38,348 nt of DNA from Mollicutes bacterium (GTDB lineage Bacteria > Bacillota_I > Bacilli_A > RFN20 > CAG-826): contig JALEXS010000040.1 of assembly GCA_022780025.1 (NCBI GenBank), positions 1 to 38,348 on the forward strand, given 5' to 3'. Below are positions 9,703-37,975 of the stretch, in pieces (the first letter of the stretch is position 1; each line of letters opens with the position of its first letter). Both the position numbers and the translations under genes were made by a program. The notes below the pieces were generated by a model, which was not told the DNA's origin, searched no databases, and saw only the letters and a list, made by a program, of their open reading frames with translations.

Positions 9703-9760
9703 TTGAATTAAAAAATATTTAAACTTATATATTATATAAATAGAAAGGATGGTAATAGTT

Positions 9761-10750
9761 ATGACGGGAAGTAGTCGTTTAATAGATGTTGCATTTTATG
9801 TAGCTTTATTCACTATTATAGGGTTAGCTATTACTTTTTCCTTGCTATTTTTTCTTTATGCTCGATATAAGAGAAAACATATTAAATATGGACATGAAGA
9901 TGAAAAATTATTAAAAGAATTAAAAAGAAAATATAAAAATATATTATCTAAGGATGATCATGATCTAATTGATACTTATAATGATGATAGTAAGTATCAA
10001 TTAGAATATGCTGATAGAGTTAAAAATGTTGAAACATTTTTATATAATCATCCAGAAGTAGAGAAAAAAGATAAAGTTAGATTAGCTAAATTATTAAATT
10101 TAGATGAAGAAAAAGAAAAAAGAAGAAAGAAAAGAAGTAGAATATATACAATTATATTCTCTAGTATATTTATAGTAATTATTATCTTAATAGCTTCATT
10201 TAAATTTAATGGAGAATGTTTTTATTTAGGGGATGAAACTTATATTGTTATTAAGACTGGATCAATGGAAACAGTTAATGATAAGAATACATATATAAAA
10301 GAAAATAACTTAAAGAATCAAATAACTCAATTTTCTTTAATTGGATTAAAGAAAATTAAAGAAGAAGATATTAAAGTATATGATGTAGTTGGTTTTAAAA
10401 ATGATGAAGGTGATATCATAGTTCACCGTATTATTAGAATTAACTATAATAGTGAAGAAAATAAGAATTATTATACATTCCAAGGGGATGCTAATAGTGC
10501 TAGTAATAAATATGAATTAGCAGTAAGTTATGATAAATTTGTTGGTAAATATACTGGATTTAATAATTATGGATTAGGTGTACTTATTACTTATTTAAAA
10601 AGTAGTGCTGGTATAGTTGCTTTATGTAGTTGTATATTCTTTTTAGTTACTTTTAATTATTCAGAAGATGCAATTGATAAAGAATATAAGAAACGTTTTA
10701 GATATGTTGCTGATGTCTATGATAAAGATAAAGATTTAGGAGTTATTTAA
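9761..10750 (+). CDS. sipW: SipW/ER-type signal peptidase I with extra cytoplasmic domain
   Basis: This protein of about 329 aa belongs to the S26B signal peptidases, which use a Ser-His pair instead of Ser-Lys. The nucleophile is S168 in IKTGSM, the His is H222 in GDIIVHR, and the GDAN box is at about 242-245. A membrane segment precedes the catalytic domain and another follows it (near LVTF). Unusually, there is an additional N-terminal membrane segment (about residues 6-33) and a highly charged region of roughly 95 residues before the catalytic part. I chose ATG 9761 because AAAGGA lies about 11 bases upstream; the in-frame ATG at 9749 overlaps that site. Its neighbours on both sides have SipW-type signal peptides and are its likely substrates. 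Confidence 0.85.
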   Translation: MTGSSRLIDVAFYVALFTIIGLAITFSLLFFLYARYKRKHIKYGHEDEKLLKELKRKYKNILSKDDHDLIDTYNDDSKYQLEYADRVKNVETFLYNHPEVEKKDKVRLAKLLNLDEEKEKRRKKRSRIYTIIFSSIFIVIIILIASFKFNGECFYLGDETYIVIKTGSMETVNDKNTYIKENNLKNQITQFSLIGLKKIKEEDIKVYDVVGFKNDEGDIIVHRIIRINYNSEENKNYYTFQGDANSASNKYELAVSYDKFVGKYTGFNNYGLGVLITYLKSSAGIVALCSCIFFLVTFNYSEDAIDKEYKKRFRYVADVYDKDKDLGVI

Positions 10751-10751
10751 A

Positions 10752-11420
10752 GTGAATATACGTAAGATATTATATGTATTTCTTCCTATTATTTCTTTAT
10801 TAACTATTTTAGGTATTGGATTTTCTAGCTGGGCTTTTGGACCTTTAGAAATTGAAAGTAAGAACCAATCAATTGATGTAAAAGTTACTAATAGTATTAC
10901 AAATGGTAAATTACATTTAATTAGTTCACCTGATTTAGTTGTTTTTAGTGAAGGTGTTGGTAAAGTTGAAGATTTAACTGATGGAATCGAGTTTTATCGT
11001 AAAAATAAAGATGCTAATTTAAATGAAGAAGTTTATGTTAATGATCCTTTATTAACGTTAGATTATGAAATTATAGATAGCGAAGATTCAATCGATTATT
11101 TAAATGAATTTTCTTTATTTATTAATATTGATCCTCTTAATAGTGGAGAAAATTCATTAAAGAATTATATTGGTTTAACTTCTAAATATAGTGATGCTGG
11201 AACAACTACAGGATATAACTTTAAAAAGAATATTACTAAATTAAATAAAGATGAAATATATCCTTTAGGTGGATTTAGATTTCAATTAGATTTAAATGAA
11301 ACTATTCAATATATAGATTTAAGTAAAAAACCAACAACATTTGAAAAATATGAAGAGTTATATAATAAACTAAATACTCTTGAAAAATTGTATATACAAA
11401 TATTATTTAGGATTAGTTAA
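10752..11420 (+). CDS. Second small secreted protein with SipW-type signal peptide
   Basis: This 222-aa protein starts at a GTG one base after the peptidase stop, supported by TAGGAG eight bases upstream. Its signal peptide ends in GIGFSSWAFG (about residues 21-30), matching the motif of the two other exported proteins in the operon. The mature chain is acidic and Asp/Asn/Leu-rich with no recognised domain. It shares with the 9028 product an IDVKVT stretch after the signal, a DLTDGIEF segment and a KKPTTFEKYEELY segment near the C-terminus. Placement next to a dedicated peptidase suggests it is cleaved by it and works outside the cell with its paralogue. Confidence 0.72.
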   Translation: MNIRKILYVFLPIISLLTILGIGFSSWAFGPLEIESKNQSIDVKVTNSITNGKLHLISSPDLVVFSEGVGKVEDLTDGIEFYRKNKDANLNEEVYVNDPLLTLDYEIIDSEDSIDYLNEFSLFINIDPLNSGENSLKNYIGLTSKYSDAGTTTGYNFKKNITKLNKDEIYPLGGFRFQLDLNETIQYIDLSKKPTTFEKYEELYNKLNTLEKLYIQILFRIS

Positions 11421-11423
11421 AAG

Positions 11424-14027
11424 ATGAGTAAATGGATTAAAAGAATATTTTTATTTATTGCAACCTTAGTTACTGGACTAAGTTCTTTTGGCTTATCTAG
11501 TTGGTATTTTTCTGAAACAAAAGAAATAAATAAGAAAATTGATAATTCTAATAATAACAATGGTTATAGAATGGATGATATTGAAGAGAATTATCGATTT
11601 GGTAAAGCTAATGAAGATAAGCAATATACAATGTATTTCTTTCCTAGCGCTGCTTATATGTTTTTATATGCTAGATATTTAGAAGATAATACTTTATATT
11701 ATGGACCTCATTATTTACCTGAAGAAGAATTTGGATATAAAGAAGTTTTAACTAATGAATCTGGTAATGTTTTAACTGATAAAGATGGCAATGCTTTATT
11801 TAAATTAAGTGAAAATACAGGTAAATATCAAAATGATGTTAATATTAATAGTGATACAAGCTATGATGGCAGTTATAAATTATTTATAAATAAACATTTT
11901 AGAATTAACGATGAGACTGAATTAGATGGTAAAGCTGGTAGTGGCAGTATTTACGAACATAGTCAAAAATCTGGTAGAACTTGGGGTTCGCCTACTGATA
12001 CATTGACTTTTGATCCTAATAATAAGAATCGCGTGGAGCAATATAATGGTAAAGATTTGTTTTCTTTAGATCGCTTTGGATGTTGGGGTGATTCTTATTA
12101 TTATGGATATAGTGGAGATGAAAATGGTGCTAATGTTACTTTTATAAATGATGAAAAAGCTAATTCATCTAATACTGGAAGATATTTACCAATTAAAATG
12201 ACTGTATCTAACGCAATGTCAATTGATTTATTGAATAAAGTTATTGGTGATGTATTTTCTTCAATGGGAGATATTAGAGAATGGTATAATTTTAGTTTTA
12301 CTAACTGGACTTATGTAACTAAAAATAATGATGGCACTTATTCTTATCCTTATGATTGGAGAAATAATAATTATACGACCGATGCTTTTAAACCAATAGG
12401 TGAAGCTTTTAGTGCTAAAGATATTGATCGTTATTTTGATGTTTTTGAAGACTTATATAAATTTGCTGATGAAAATGGAGTTATTAGATTATTTCCTTTA
12501 TTTTCTAATGGTAAAAAATATAATGCATCTAGTTATACTGATGGTGGTGCTGATTGTTTTAAATTAATCGGCGATTATCAAGATAATAGAAACACTAGTT
12601 ATCGATATTTTATGCCTTCTAGTGAAAGAATTCATGATGGCAGTGATAATTTTTTAGGTACTAAAATACCTAATAGTAATGTACGTTATTACACTTATAA
12701 TTATTTAAAACTTAAAAAGAATCATAATTTTAGTTCTTTAAAAATTGCAATTGACTGGACTGAAAGCAAACCAAAAAATTGGGCTGGAACTTGGCACGAT
12801 ATATATTCATTAGATTTAAATTATATTAATAATGAACTCATTAATAAATATGGTGATGGTCTATATAATTTTTATTTATTCCAAGGCAATTTTGATCATA
12901 AATCTAATGAAATTAGCTATGATGATTTTTATAATAAAATTAAAACTGAAGCAGTAGGCAAAAATGGCTTTAAAACATTAAAAGGCAAATCGATTCAATT
13001 TCTTAATATGCCTGATTTACTTAAAAAATATGAAAAAAAGTGGAATTGGATTTCATATAAATATCCTTCAAGCCCTTACAATGTTTCTCCTGTTATTTTT
13101 GCATTTGAAAAAATTGATGATCCTAAGATTATTGATAATGTTGATATTAAAGGTGAAGGTAGTAATTTAACATATGAATCTATTGATAAATTAGATGAAT
13201 ATATAGTTAAAAAATCAGTTAATGCCCATGGATTTACTAGAATATCATCACCAATATATGGCAGAAAATTAGTTGGCGAATCTTACACTTATTCTAATAA
13301 TTTAAACGAAATGAATCCATATACATATATTGCTAAAAATGTTAATTTTATGAATGCTAAAACTAATTATTTTATTATAGCTTTTAGGGATGTTTATATT
13401 AGTAATGTTAATATTAAAATTAAGAGTGAAAATTATGATAGTGTTGTAGTTGATCCTACAATAGCAGGAATTAATTATACTTATAATCCTGAAGATTTAT
13501 TTGCCAATGCAAGTGAATATATTGATAGAGTTACTTTCTCTACTGGCGATGGTAATAAATATGGTGTTCTTACCTTTAATAATGATGATTTTAAAGGTGT
13601 CTATGATATTTTATTAGTATTTGAAGGTAATAACACATTTGCCTTATATTTTTATCGACATACTAATTTATTCTTGAAAATATTTAGTAATGATTTGACT
13701 AGTTATCAAGATAATTTCTTACTACATGATGAAAATGTCTTAACTGAAGCAGATTTAATCTTTAAAAAGAAATATTTCTTAGGATTAACTATGAATAGGA
13801 ACGATAAAAATAGCATAAGCGGATTAGAGAATCAAACTTTAGAAGATGCTATTATAAATTATGTCTATGAAAAGAAAGGAAATGACTACGATTTAAGTAA
13901 TATTAGAGTAATAGATCACGTTACTAAAACTGTTGTAGCTAAATTTATTTCTAAAAATGGATCTTACGAGCTAGAATGTAATCAAAAGATATATAAAAAC
14001 TATGTATTTTATTTATCAATTGAATAA
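11424..14027 (+). CDS. Large secreted protein of unknown function with SipW-type signal peptide
   Basis: I do not recognise this 867-aa protein. Its N-terminus has a hydrophobic core and the same motif, GLSSWYFS (about residues 23-30), which links it to the co-encoded signal peptidase. The mature protein is rich in Tyr, Asn, Asp and aromatic residues, with stretches such as WGDSYYYGYSGD and many short polar loops, typical of large extracellular beta proteins. There is no LPxTG motif and no C-terminal membrane segment, so it should be released or held non-covalently. It is the last gene of the cassette, three bases after the preceding stop, and has only a weak AGGA ribosome-binding site. An adhesin or matrix role is a guess. 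Confidence 0.7.
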   Translation: MSKWIKRIFLFIATLVTGLSSFGLSSWYFSETKEINKKIDNSNNNNGYRMDDIEENYRFGKANEDKQYTMYFFPSAAYMFLYARYLEDNTLYYGPHYLPEEEFGYKEVLTNESGNVLTDKDGNALFKLSENTGKYQNDVNINSDTSYDGSYKLFINKHFRINDETELDGKAGSGSIYEHSQKSGRTWGSPTDTLTFDPNNKNRVEQYNGKDLFSLDRFGCWGDSYYYGYSGDENGANVTFINDEKANSSNTGRYLPIKMTVSNAMSIDLLNKVIGDVFSSMGDIREWYNFSFTNWTYVTKNNDGTYSYPYDWRNNNYTTDAFKPIGEAFSAKDIDRYFDVFEDLYKFADENGVIRLFPLFSNGKKYNASSYTDGGADCFKLIGDYQDNRNTSYRYFMPSSERIHDGSDNFLGTKIPNSNVRYYTYNYLKLKKNHNFSSLKIAIDWTESKPKNWAGTWHDIYSLDLNYINNELINKYGDGLYNFYLFQGNFDHKSNEISYDDFYNKIKTEAVGKNGFKTLKGKSIQFLNMPDLLKKYEKKWNWISYKYPSSPYNVSPVIFAFEKIDDPKIIDNVDIKGEGSNLTYESIDKLDEYIVKKSVNAHGFTRISSPIYGRKLVGESYTYSNNLNEMNPYTYIAKNVNFMNAKTNYFIIAFRDVYISNVNIKIKSENYDSVVVDPTIAGINYTYNPEDLFANASEYIDRVTFSTGDGNKYGVLTFNNDDFKGVYDILLVFEGNNTFALYFYRHTNLFLKIFSNDLTSYQDNFLLHDENVLTEADLIFKKKYFLGLTMNRNDKNSISGLENQTLEDAIINYVYEKKGNDYDLSNIRVIDHVTKTVVAKFISKNGSYELECNQKIYKNYVFYLSIE

Positions 14028-14259: not shown

Positions 14260-15366
14260 ATGAAAAAAAGTTTATGTTTATGTGCTACTTTAGCTGCTTT
14301 AATGATTTGTGGTGGTGCTACTAGTTGTGGAAAAGAAGACACTAAGAGTACTATTAAGATTCAATTCGTTCCATCAAATGATCCTGATACTTTAGGTGCT
14401 CTTGCAAAAAGACTTGAGCCAGTATTACACGAGATTACTCCAGAATATAATTATGAAATCTCTGTTGGTACTAGTTATGGTGCTACTACTGAAGCTTTAT
14501 TATCAAATCAACTTGATATCGGTTTCTTAACTGCTTCAGGCTATGCTCAAGTTACATTGCAAAATAAAGGTAAAGTTGAAGTTTTATTAACTAGTGTTAG
14601 AAAAGGTTATAAAGTTCAAGTTGAAGATTATGTTGGTGATGTAAAAAAACAAATGCAAGCTATGAATGGCGAGATTGAAGGCTATAAATATTTAGGCGAA
14701 CAATCAGACAAAGATGTAAACTGGTATACTTCACAATTATCTGTTGGCAATGCTTATTATAAAGATGCTAATAAAGATGGTAAAATTGATGTTTTAGATT
14801 TAGCTGGTTTAAAAATTGGTAGAATGGATGTTAGTAGTGGTGCAGGTTATTTAAGACCATTAAAATATCTTAACGATATGGGTATGAGCATGGTTGATCA
14901 AACAACTTATGATAAAGCTTCAGCAGAAGAAAAGAAAAAGATGATTATTGGCGTTGAACAACAAAACTATGGTGCTGCTTTCAATAATACTCAAGATGGT
15001 GTTATTGCTGGTTTCTGGGGATTCACCGATGTTAGATATGCTCAAGGATATATTAAGAAAGATAATGCATACTATGGAAAAGAAGAAGCTTTCACAAAAA
15101 CTAAAGTTATCGCTATAACAGATGGTATTTATAATGATACAATTTCAGCAAGAAGTAGCTTAGAAGCTAGTAAGAAAGAAGCTGTTATGAAAGCATTTAA
15201 AACTGCTGTTACTATGACTGAAAAAATCGAAGGTACAGATATGTCACCAAAAGATGTTCTTTATAAAGTTTATTCACATACTGGATATACTGAAGCTAAA
15301 GATAGTGATTTCGAAGGTGAAAGAGAATTCTATCAATATTGTGTTGACCACGATTTGATTAAATAA
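14260..15366 (+). CDS. phnD: PhnD-like ABC transporter substrate-binding lipoprotein with EF-hand-like loop
   Basis: This 368-aa lipoprotein of the phosphate/phosphite/phosphonate-binding family delivers an oxyanion or organophosphorus ligand to the PhnC/PhnE transporter. The signal peptide ends in GGATSC with C23 as the lipid site. The family pattern is clear: an IQFVPSNDP start, GTSYGATTEALLSNQLDIGFL, and a segment near residues 186-200 ending in SSGAGYLRP. Between the two lobes, residues 169-180 form a textbook calcium loop: D169, N171, D173, K175 backbone, D177, D180. It continues as LAGLK like a dockerin repeat. This replaces the short linker normally found there. The ligand cannot be told from sequence; no C-P lyase genes are nearby. 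A strong AGGGAGAG precedes the ATG. Confidence 0.85.
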   Translation: MKKSLCLCATLAALMICGGATSCGKEDTKSTIKIQFVPSNDPDTLGALAKRLEPVLHEITPEYNYEISVGTSYGATTEALLSNQLDIGFLTASGYAQVTLQNKGKVEVLLTSVRKGYKVQVEDYVGDVKKQMQAMNGEIEGYKYLGEQSDKDVNWYTSQLSVGNAYYKDANKDGKIDVLDLAGLKIGRMDVSSGAGYLRPLKYLNDMGMSMVDQTTYDKASAEEKKKMIIGVEQQNYGAAFNNTQDGVIAGFWGFTDVRYAQGYIKKDNAYYGKEEAFTKTKVIAITDGIYNDTISARSSLEASKKEAVMKAFKTAVTMTEKIEGTDMSPKDVLYKVYSHTGYTEAKDSDFEGEREFYQYCVDHDLIK

Positions 15367-15404: not shown

Positions 15405-16187
15405 ATGATAAAGTTTGATCATGTTGATAAGATATATCCTAACGGATATAAAGCATTAGATGATGTTAGTTTAACTGTTAATGATGGTGATTTTTTATGT
15501 ATCATTGGTTTATCTGGAGCTGGTAAATCAACATTAATACGTACTATTAATAAAATGCATGATATTCAACATGGTCAACTTATCGTTAATGATGTCGATA
15601 TAAGTAAAATAAAAGGTAAAAAACTTAGAGAACTTAGAAAAAATATTGGTATGATATTCCAATCTTTTAACTTAGTTAAAAGAAGTAGTGTTTATAAAAA
15701 TGTTTTAAGTGGAAGAGTTGGTTATCATAATACATTTGAAAATTTGTTCAATATCTATTCTAAAAAAGAGAAGATGCTTGCGTTACAATCTTTAGATAAA
15801 TTAGGTATTTTAGATAAAGCTTTTGTTAGAGCTGATCAATTAAGTGGAGGTCAACAACAACGTGTTGCCCTTGCTAGAGCTTTAACGCAAGAACCTTCAA
15901 TCATCTTAGCTGATGAACCAGTTGCTAGTCTTGATCCTGTCACTACTTTAAGTGTTATGGATGACTTTAAACGTATTAATAAAGATTATCATATTACAAT
16001 TGTTGCTAATATGCATCACGTTGATTTAGCGCTTAAATACGCAACTAGAGTAATTGGTATTAAACAAGGTAAGATTGTATTTGATGGATTACCAAGTGAA
16101 GTTAATGATGATATTTTACTTAATATTTATGGACGTGCTTTAAAACATAGTGAAAAATTAGGAGATGTAGATACTAATGAAAAATAA
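15405..16187 (+). CDS. phnC: PhnC-like ABC transporter ATP-binding protein
   Basis: This 260-aa ATPase powers the importer from the cytoplasmic face. Walker A is GLSGAGKST (residues 35-43), the signature is LSGGQQQR (about 146-153), Walker B is IILADEP (about 166-172), and the switch His lies in MHHVDLA. The closest family is PhnC, given the PhnD and two PhnE partners beside it. Its 3' end overlaps the next gene by 11 bases, showing tight coupling. AAAGGA precedes its ATG. Confidence 0.93.
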   Translation: MIKFDHVDKIYPNGYKALDDVSLTVNDGDFLCIIGLSGAGKSTLIRTINKMHDIQHGQLIVNDVDISKIKGKKLRELRKNIGMIFQSFNLVKRSSVYKNVLSGRVGYHNTFENLFNIYSKKEKMLALQSLDKLGILDKAFVRADQLSGGQQQRVALARALTQEPSIILADEPVASLDPVTTLSVMDDFKRINKDYHITIVANMHHVDLALKYATRVIGIKQGKIVFDGLPSEVNDDILLNIYGRALKHSEKLGDVDTNEK

Positions 16188-17082
16188 TGTTTTAAAGGAT
16201 GAGACTAAATCCAATAAAATAAAAGATTTTTTTCATAAAATTTTTTATAGAAATGTAGTTGTCTCAGTTGATGAATTTAATAAGCCAACTAAAATAATTG
16301 AAAAGAAAAGAAGTAAAGCATTATTATTTACTTTACTTATACTTTTAGTCTTTTTTGGTTCATTTTATTTTGTTGATTTGCCTAATAGAGTTGCTATTGA
16401 TCAATTTGGTATTATTTTTGAACAAATGTTTAAACCAAATCCTTATTCTTTAAAGACTTGGCCTAGATATTGGGATTATTTATTTAATAGCGCAGTTCCA
16501 GCAATTGGACAAACTATTGAAATGGTCTTTATTGGTACTTTATTTGGAACTATTTTAGCTATTCCTTTATTTATGTTAGCTAGTAAAAATATAAGTAAAC
16601 ATTCTTATATTTATATGCCAGTTAGAGTAATAATGGATATTGTTAGAAGTATTCCTACCTATGTTTTAGCTCTTATGTCAGTTGCTTTTTTTGGAATAGG
16701 TTCTACTGCTGGTATTATGGCAATTATCATATTTACAATGGGTATTATGTTTAAACTTATGTTTGAATATTTAGATACTTTAGATATGAATGCTTTTGAA
16801 GCTTGTTTATCTTGTGGTGCTAGTAGATTTGAAGCAGCTAAAATCAGTTTATTTCCTGATGCTAATCCAATGTTAATTTCTAACTTTATTTATACATTTG
16901 AAATTAACGTTAGAGCTAGTGTTATTTTAGCTTGGGCTAATGCTGGTGGTATTGGTTCTTTATTAAAAACTGCGATGGCAGCAATGCAATATGATAAAGT
17001 TGGTGCAATATTAATTCCTTTATTTATTGTTGTATTTATATTGCAACTTATTTCTAGTTTCTTAAGAAGGAAGGTCTTATAA
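16177..17082 (+). CDS. phnE: PhnE-like ABC transporter permease 1
   Basis: This 301-aa inner-membrane permease has a cytoplasmic N-terminal extension of about 45 residues and about six membrane segments. The EAA coupling loop, which contacts PhnC, contains EACLSCGASRFEAA. It overlaps phnC and is followed two bases after its stop by a second, related permease. The two are probably the halves of a heterodimeric channel. Confidence 0.9.
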   Translation: MKNNVLKDETKSNKIKDFFHKIFYRNVVVSVDEFNKPTKIIEKKRSKALLFTLLILLVFFGSFYFVDLPNRVAIDQFGIIFEQMFKPNPYSLKTWPRYWDYLFNSAVPAIGQTIEMVFIGTLFGTILAIPLFMLASKNISKHSYIYMPVRVIMDIVRSIPTYVLALMSVAFFGIGSTAGIMAIIIFTMGIMFKLMFEYLDTLDMNAFEACLSCGASRFEAAKISLFPDANPMLISNFIYTFEINVRASVILAWANAGGIGSLLKTAMAAMQYDKVGAILIPLFIVVFILQLISSFLRRKVL

Positions 17083-17084
17083 TT

Positions 17085-18005
17085 ATGGAAAATAAAAGAA
17101 ATATATTAGTAATTATAAGTGATTTTTTTGAGAAGTATATTATTAATCCTCTTAATAAATTTTGGAATATAATTACTTTTAAATCTAAGAAAACTTTTGA
17201 TGATCCTAGTGATGCATATCATCATAGACCATTATATTGGATATATACTTTATTATTAATTATAGTTATATTTGGTTGTTTAATTTATTCATGTATTGAT
17301 GTTGATTTTATGGGACATATAAGTAGTAGTCCTAGTAATATTAAAATGTTATTTAAGGGCTTAGCTCATCCTGATTGGTCATTATTTTTTGGATATGGAA
17401 GTTTTAATTTTAGTGAATCTACAATCTATCAAATAATTGAAACTTTAGCGATTGCATTTATTGGAACTTCGATAAGTTCTATTTTATCATTACCATTTGG
17501 GTTCTTAGCTAGTAGAAAAATAGTAGGAAAATGGGCATTTATTAGTGAATTTTTATTAATAATCATTAGAACTTTCCCAGAATTACTATTTGGTTTAATC
17601 ATTATTAAGGTAGTTGGATTTGGTGCTTTTACTGGAGTTGTTGTTTTATCTATTCATAGTATTGGTATGATTGGTAAGATGTTTGCTGAACAATTAGATG
17701 TTATTTCTAATGAACCTTTAGAAGCTCTTGATGCTTGTGGAGCTAGTGGATTAGTTAGAATCAAAAATGGTGTTATTCCTCAAGTTGCTCCTAATTTCTT
17801 AAGTGTTATTTTATATAGATTTGACTTAAATGTTAGAACTGCTAGTTTACTTGGTGTTGTTGGTGCTGGTGGTATCGGATATTCTTTATGGGTTTATAGT
17901 GCTTTTAACTCATGGAGTCAAGAAGCTAGTATGATATATGGAATTATTATTATGATTGTATTAATTGATATATTGTCTAGTTATTTAAGAAAGAAATTAA
18001 TTTAA
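17085..18005 (+). CDS. phnE: PhnE-like ABC transporter permease 2
   Basis: This 306-aa permease is paralogous to its upstream neighbour. It shares the N-terminal cytoplasmic segment, similar membrane topology, the EAA loop with EALDACGASG, and a late NVRTASLLGVVGAGGIG segment that matches NVRASVILAWANAGGIG in permease 1. AGGAAGG lies ahead of its ATG. Paired PhnE genes with one PhnD and one PhnC are a common arrangement. Confidence 0.9.
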   Translation: MENKRNILVIISDFFEKYIINPLNKFWNIITFKSKKTFDDPSDAYHHRPLYWIYTLLLIIVIFGCLIYSCIDVDFMGHISSSPSNIKMLFKGLAHPDWSLFFGYGSFNFSESTIYQIIETLAIAFIGTSISSILSLPFGFLASRKIVGKWAFISEFLLIIIRTFPELLFGLIIIKVVGFGAFTGVVVLSIHSIGMIGKMFAEQLDVISNEPLEALDACGASGLVRIKNGVIPQVAPNFLSVILYRFDLNVRTASLLGVVGAGGIGYSLWVYSAFNSWSQEASMIYGIIIMIVLIDILSSYLRKKLI

Positions 18006-18009
18006 TATA

Positions 18010-18516
18010 ATGAAAAGTTTAATCATGGTTAGTGGTTTACCAGGTAGTGGTAAATCTACATATTTAAGAAGTCATATTAAAGAATATAAAAATCCAGTTC
18101 GTATTGATAGTGATGAAACTAGAAGAACGATGTTTGGATCTTATTTAACTTTTCCTAAAGATATGTATATTATCTATGATCATATGATTGATATAGCTAA
18201 TGATATATACGATAAATATAAAGATAAAGATTTAACTATTATTATGGATTCTACTTTTTTAGATAATTATAAAAAAGAACATTTTTTAGCTAGATTAAGA
18301 CCATTTGATTATTATGAATTAATAATATTTAAATCAACTGATTTAAATTTTAATTTTGCAAATAATAAAAAAAGAATAAAAGAAAAATGGGTTCCTGAAG
18401 ATGTTATTATTAAAATGACTAAAGAAATAGAACCATTAAGTGACAATTTATTAAAAAAATTTAATAAAATAATTGAAATAGAAATACCATCTTATAAAGA
18501 AAATATTATAAAATAA
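18010..18516 (+). CDS. P-loop kinase-like ATPase (AAA_33/polynucleotide-kinase type)
   Basis: This 168-aa protein has Walker A GLPGSGKST (residues 9-17), a RIDSDETRR segment that in this superfamily positions the acceptor, and a Walker B-like TIIMDSTFLDN. The size and motifs fit a small kinase of the AAA_33/zeta-toxin/polynucleotide-kinase group. The substrate is unknown. It starts four bases after the permease stop without a clear ribosome-binding site, so it is probably coupled to the transporter and could act on something linked to the imported ligand. That link rests only on position. Confidence 0.75.
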   Translation: MKSLIMVSGLPGSGKSTYLRSHIKEYKNPVRIDSDETRRTMFGSYLTFPKDMYIIYDHMIDIANDIYDKYKDKDLTIIMDSTFLDNYKKEHFLARLRPFDYYELIIFKSTDLNFNFANNKKRIKEKWVPEDVIIKMTKEIEPLSDNLLKKFNKIIEIEIPSYKENIIK

Positions 18517-37896: not shown

Positions 37897-37975
37897 GGCT
37901 CCATAGCTCAGATGGATAGAGCACAGTCCTCCTAAGACTGGTTTTGGACGAGTTCGAGTCTCGTTGGGGCCTCCA
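37897..37975 (+). tRNA. tRNA-Arg (anticodon CCU)
   Basis: A complete cloverleaf. The acceptor GGCTCCA pairs with TGGGGCC (one G-U); the D arm is GCTC/GAGC; the anticodon stem CAGTC/GACTG encloses CTCCTAA with anticodon CCT; the T arm is ACGAG-TTCGAGT-CTCGT; the 3' CCA is encoded. It reads AGG codons. A TATAAT at 37882-37887 is a likely -10. Confidence 0.95.

Follow-up and report, generated by a model that had tools for sequence, protein, structure and literature searches.

The phnDCE locus and its binding protein

In the window, i.e. the whole analysed stretch of 38,348 nucleotides from a gut-type bacterium, the open reading frame at 14260-15366 (forward strand, ATG start, 368 aa) constitutes the first gene of a phnD-phnC-phnE-phnE operon. 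The features of the locus are collected in Table 1. The identity of the operon is clear from the presence of TIGR02315 and TIGR01097 matches within the window, and phnC was found to adjoin the gene of the binding protein in 19 of the 20 fetched regions. A riboswitch or other RNA family was not found upstream of the operon, the only RNA found being a tRNA at 37897-37972. The second phnE is followed by a fifth gene, encoding a small kinase-like protein, that recurs in this position (E<1e-30) in 7 of the 20 fetched regions. Considering this recurrence beside phnE, one may speculate that the imported compound is phosphorylated. Upstream of the operon, at 9749-14027, the window holds a gene for a SipW-like signal peptidase (NF046067, 49.8 bits, cut-off 190) and then genes for two proteins, of 222 and 867 aa, that look exported. 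For the former, neither Pfam (E<=0.1) nor NCBIfam (E<=0.001) gave a match, and the sole match of the latter, to Pfam PhoQ_Sensor (13.9 bits), was under the cut-off.

Table 1. Coordinates of the genes and protein features discussed in the text (positions in the window)
Feature	Position	Strand	Evidence
PhnD-type (PF12974, cluster F / type II) substrate-binding protein, putative lipoprotein, 368 aa	14260..15366	+	Pfam, AlphaFold, structural matches
Predicted signal peptide to lipid-anchor cysteine C23	14260..14328	+	C23 invariant in 18/18 aligned sequences
Strand 155-163 leading into the loop	14722..14748	+	DSSP of the model; presumed lobe 1 to lobe 2 crossing strand
EF-hand-like 12-residue calcium-type loop, residues 169-180	14764..14799	+	Translation; kept in 14/23 genomes; single clade
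DLAGLK, family-wide PhnD motif 'DLaGKkV'	14797..14814	+	Same columns in loop-less relatives
SSGAG turn, residues 192-196	14833..14847	+	S193 and G196 invariant in 18/18 aligned sequences
phnC, ATP-binding subunit	15405..16187	+	TIGR02315 339.3 bits, cut-off 266.1
phnE, first permease	16177..17082	+	TIGR01097 214.0 bits, just under cut-off 216.7
phnE, second permease	17085..18005	+	TIGR01097 235.2 bits, cut-off 216.7
Small P-loop kinase-like protein (AAA_33 / zeta-toxin-like)	18010..18516	+	PF13671 53 bits, PF06414 33.8 bits

The product of the first gene, a putative lipoprotein judging from its N-terminus, belongs to the PhnD-type cluster F of the binding proteins, as it combines PF12974 (70.8 bits versus a cut-off of 27) with a two-lobed type II fold. 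The AlphaFold model, made with 18 sequences (pLDDT 89.6, pTM 0.82), is that of a two-lobed cluster F protein, and its top structural matches include PtxB, HtxB, XAC2383, AioX, PhnD and the mycoplasma protein p37. Among the structures matched were 5ub7_B (Z 24.1, 2.9 A, 265 aligned), 3e78 (Z 23.8, 3.2 A, 285 aligned) and 6ghq (Z 23.0, 3.2 A, 261 aligned). The protein shares with PhnD, PtxB, HtxB, AioX and p37 the fold, the Pfam family, the DLxGKkV strand, the SS/STS turn and the phnDCE operon. The score against NCBIfam TIGR03431, the true PhnD phosphonate equivalog, was 51 bits versus a cut-off of 261.1, and that against the wider NCBIfam phosphate/phosphite/phosphonate family 87 bits versus 112.05. 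Since both scores are under the cut-off a substrate was not assigned. A sequence search of the PDB yielded no close relative and, by sequence, no solved PhnD-type structure with a loop like the one described below.

Codons 169-180 translate to DANKDGKIDVLD (D-A-N-K-D-G-K-I-D-V-L-D) and are followed by L-A-G-L-K. According to the first-pass annotation all canonical positions of a calcium loop are filled in this stretch, and the translation bears this out for positions 1, 3, 5, 6, 8, 9 and 12. More specifically, the stretch corresponds to the canonical 12-residue loop of the EF-hand (ligands at 1, 3, 5, 7, 9 and 12, Gly at 6), both in its sequence and in the conservation among 14 sequences. It likewise corresponds to a Dx[DN]xDG loop with a later acidic ligand in the definition given in PMC3123361, formed by D169-G174 and then D180. 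Across the 30 ORFs of the window that were used (11,906 aa) a loose EF-hand/dockerin pattern matched a single time, against 0.085 matches expected when residues are shuffled; when only the PhnD-type protein was shuffled, the pattern had P = 0.0028. The exact form D.N.DG.ID..D, a pattern written after seeing the sequence, was found in 0 of 1,000 window shuffles and in 0 of 50,000 single-protein shuffles. On composition alone these numbers are suggestive, the loop being only mildly to moderately improbable. What lifts the motif above chance is the conservation of the loop in homologues, rather than the improbability of the sequence alone.

Conservation and origin of the loop

An order-level search covered 279 genomes and revealed homologues of the binding protein in 23 of them, the genome of the window included. 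The loop is present in 14 of the 23 (L001-L009, L011-L013, L016 and L017) and absent in 7 (L010, L014, L015, L018 and L021-L023), and in the remaining two, the permuted homologues L019 and L020 (see below), the sequence at the loop site is degenerate. A scan of the genome contigs produced one locus, L029, the protein of which is identical to L004. The mean pairwise identity of the 14 loop-bearing sequences is 45% (range 31-98%). Nevertheless, positions 1, 5 and 6 of the loop are D, D and G in all 14, position 3 is N (9) or D (5), and position 12 is acidic throughout (5 D, 9 E). Position 8 is always I, V or T, position 9 always D, S, T or E, and the residue following the loop is L, M, I or V in each of them, whereas positions 2, 4, 7 and 11 are variable. 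Fixed ligand positions next to free non-ligand positions constitute the pattern that selection on metal ligands would leave, and the swaps between D and E at position 12 and between N and D at position 3 are exchanges tolerated by metal ligation. The first-pass reading was to be considered refuted if close homologues lacked the acidic positions, which is not what was found: positions 1, 3, 5 and 12 are kept in 13 of the 13 other loop-bearing homologues, and two permuted members of the clade have lost the loop.

The search was extended to the class level (395 genomes, 87 with a match), where loci were made for 30 genomes, 26 of them new, and the loop was missing in all 26 new relatives that were aligned. 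At the phylum level (392 genomes, 86 with a match) 21 further loci were obtained, several of which represented the same genes again, and the sole match to the pattern was an unrelated DSDYDG near the C-terminus. The loop is dispensable, as it is missing in 7 of the 23 order-level homologues, in the two permuted ones, and in 26 of the 26 class-level relatives.

In a tree of 49 sequences, from which the loop columns had been left out, all loop-bearing proteins and the two degenerate permutants were found on one side of a single branch (support 100/100). The presence and absence of the loop required two changes on this tree, a count that by itself cannot separate gain from loss. Because loop-less proteins occupy all other branches, we infer one gain, followed by one loss within the clade. 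The relatives outside the clade carry other turns at the loop site, which are mostly shorter. More specifically, in the sequences that adjoin the clade L010 has DSGINSVTDLAGKKV and L033 has DSPVNTVADLKGKI where the protein of the window has DANKDGKIDVLDLAGLKI, a comparison which suggests that the loop probably arose via the insertion of a few residues in a surface turn. The dockerin-like character that had been ascribed to LAGLK turned out to be a coincidence, in that the same columns hold DLAGKKV, DLKGKTV or similar sequences in relatives that lack the loop. DLAGLK is thus probably inherited PhnD sequence, the Asp of which became ligand 12 of the loop. Of the original reading, the complete EF-hand-type loop inside a PhnD-type protein was upheld, the loop moreover being conserved, and the likeness of LAGLK to a dockerin was not.

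Residues 169-180 form an EF-hand-like loop and constitute neither an EF-hand nor a dockerin domain. The match to Pfam Dockerin_1 scored 13.9 bits (cut-off 22.9) and spanned residues 168-184 only, the match to EF-hand_5 scored 11.9 bits (cut-off 25.9), and the best EF-hand E-values among 18 members were 0.0017-0.011. A full helix-loop-helix is not present either, for the model is helical only at 164-166 and 178-181 around the loop. Membership of either domain family was rejected on the basis of these scores and the very short flanking helices. For the homologues with a longer loop (L006-L009 and L016) a true helix-loop-helix was considered as well and found no support, the weak model of L016 being helical only at 66-71 and 87-92 around the loop. 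The loop of a type I dockerin reads D-x-N-x-D-G-x-I-D-x-x-D, with an acidic residue at position 12. The loop described here is like such a repeat in exactly this respect, and unlike it in that it is single, with neither a second repeat nor a full dockerin helix. A phmmer search with a stretch of 33 residues retrieved secretagogin (E 0.0003) and the dockerin of endoglucanase A (E 0.0065). Although these matches, together with the weak ones to Dockerin_1 and EF-hand, could point to PhnD having taken up a piece of a gene for a dockerin or EF-hand protein, we consider such a capture highly improbable. The shared part comprises the loop and a few following residues only, a second repeat is lacking, DLAGLK is PhnD's own sequence, and convergent evolution produces Dx[DN]xDG loops time and again (PMC3123361).

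Position in the fold and possible role of a bound ion

In the model a loop at 167-177 is followed by a helix at 178-181, and the mean pLDDT of the corresponding 10-residue blocks is high (97 for 161-170 and 95 for 171-180). The calcium-type loop sits between strand 155-163 and the short strand 185-188, which leads to the SSGAG turn, and its end precedes that turn by 12 residues. In our reading of the alignment the SSGAG turn would correspond to the oxyanion-binding STS motif of PhnD, which binds phosphate in PhnD1 (PMC10284923). Considering that the model shows a non-regular loop and that its length varies among the relatives, the loop is probably exposed. In proteins of type II topology a strand like 155-163 crosses from the hinge and lobe 1 into lobe 2, and strand 185-188 presumably points at the cleft. 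Together with the order of the strands, this topology would place the loop at the outer end of lobe 2, outside the hinge. The proposal that it resides in the linker between the lobes is therefore doubtful, and the reading of the loop as part of the hinge is unsupported.

We consider it probable, taking the statement as a whole, that the protein carries a genuine EF-hand-like Ca2+ loop that was gained once, has been kept by selection and most likely stabilises lobe 2. A single insertion, in a surface turn of the PhnD-type lipoprotein that the ancestor of a clade of Bacilli possessed, would have given rise to the loop, which would then have persisted through selection for its metal ligands. Residues 169-180 very probably bind Ca2+. 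One ion, taken from the outside medium, would be held by the side chains of D169, N171, D173 and D180 and by the main-chain carbonyl of K175, and D177 may coordinate it too, either directly or through water. The ion would pin the turn between strand 155-163, which presumably crosses the lobes, and strand 185-188, the first one of lobe 2, at whose far end the oxyanion-binding SSGAG turn would be located. The benefit would most likely be structural, i.e. a stiffer and more stable lobe 2, with calcium permanently bound at extracellular concentrations. Dx[DN]xDG motifs show frequent convergence and a bias to extracellular proteins (PMC3123361), and the fact that the loop is part of a presumed extracytoplasmic lipoprotein, where such motifs concentrate, counts in favour of a Ca2+ loop. 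It is improbable that the acidic residues were merely kept for the geometry or solubility of a metal-free surface turn. The Pfam scores under the cut-off would be in line with such a turn, but the ligand positions are jointly conserved, with the swap between D and E at position 12, across a mean identity of 45%.

Comparable loops have been described in other binding proteins. MglB and TpMglB-2 possess an EF-hand-like calcium loop, located about 30 A from the cleft in TpMglB-2, for which structural stabilisation is the only role posited (PMC4990184). The protein of the window resembles them in being a substrate-binding protein with such a loop, here a predicted one, whereas MglB and TpMglB-2 have the type I / cluster B fold. 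In TpMglB-2, moreover, a ligand is provided by the distant D166 after D71, N73 and D75 (PMC4990184), whereas here the loop itself has an acidic residue at its position 12. AlgQ1, AlgQ2, FusA, Blon_2351 and Smon0123, all of cluster G, have an EF-hand-like calcium site remote from the ligand (PMC5717064). These are large sugar-binding proteins (57 kDa in the case of Smon0123), unlike the 368-residue oxyanion-type protein of cluster F. MglB, TpMglB-2, AlgQ2 and Smon0123 thus constitute convergent precedents, which count in favour of a Ca2+ loop. In the open-licence literature no description of a calcium loop in a PhnD-type protein was found. Sequence and evolutionary evidence would add the PhnD-type proteins of cluster F to the binding proteins that have gained EF-hand-like calcium sites. 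In addition, one family now offers a gain that apparently happened only once, a loss, and relatives without the loop for direct comparison, so that the role of remote calcium sites can be tested within it.

A bound ion could serve other purposes than stability. Regulation of ligand capture, in which calcium shifts the balance between open and closed lobes or acts on the SSGAG turn and import comes to depend on external calcium, seems unlikely. Extracellular calcium normally saturates such sites, and the topology would put the loop at the outer end of lobe 2. Metal binding by E. coli MglB was reported to be without effect on sugar binding (PMC4990184), and the same holds for the site of Smon0123 and substrate binding (PMC5717064). 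Still, the loop lies between strand 155-163, which presumably crosses the lobes, and the strand toward the SSGAG turn, a location that would suit a regulatory role, as would the long and supposedly flexible hinge of cluster F proteins (PMC10284923). A calcium-sensing oxyanion importer, whose capture of a phosphate-type ligand depends on external calcium, is likewise unlikely; if real, it would allow these Bacilli to couple uptake to the supply of calcium and phosphate. A docking element, by which the calcium loop shapes the surface of lobe 2 toward the PhnE permeases or the cell envelope, has a parallel in AlgQ2, the EF-hand-like site of which contacts the ABC transporter in the crystal structure (as stated in PMC5717064), and the cognate permeases are encoded next door. 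We nevertheless find this rather unlikely, for the same operon accompanies the loop-less homologues L072, L073, L078 and L079, and docking thus does not need the loop. Considering that the known EF-hand-like sites in binding proteins are remote, and that those of MglB and Smon0123 were reported to leave substrate binding unaffected, a stabilising Ca2+ site is to be favoured over docking and regulation.

Circularly permuted homologues and other motifs

In four genomes of one genus (G230/L017, G231/L016, G239/L020 and G240/L019) the homologue is circularly permuted. The order in these proteins is a signal peptide with lipobox, the part that corresponds to residues 142 to 361-364 of the query, a linker, and the part that corresponds to residues 27-32 to 140. 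Each is encoded by one open frame (422-443 aa from the first Met), on contigs of 10.8 to 565 kb, with phnC directly downstream in all four cases and phnE also nearby. The cut maps to the segment between MNGEI and GYKYLG in the protein of the window, a loop whose length is variable, and the four permutants constitute one clade (support 100/100) that requires one change on the tree. The AlphaFold model of L016 is weak (pLDDT 67.6, pTM 0.57) and a Foldseek search with it gave no match at E <= 0.001. Among the type I binding proteins, TpMglB-2 is known to be a natural permutant (PMC4990184), and none was found described for a type II binding protein in the open-licence literature. The four relatives may represent the first case of a type II binding protein that has been circularly permuted in nature, with relocation of the lipid anchor. 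The calcium-type loop is kept in two of them (L016 and L017) and lost in the other two (L019 and L020), so that the family offers natural circular permutants both with and without the loop.

The protein of the window contains a second DxDxDG-like stretch, DSDYDGER at about residues 348-353, which is also spread over loop-less relatives and which we do not read as a calcium site. Further DxDxDG motifs were observed in other loops of the homologues, i.e. near residue 272 in L014 and L018 and at about 321-326 in L007 and L011-L013, which may mean that calcium-type loops have been gained repeatedly in this family.
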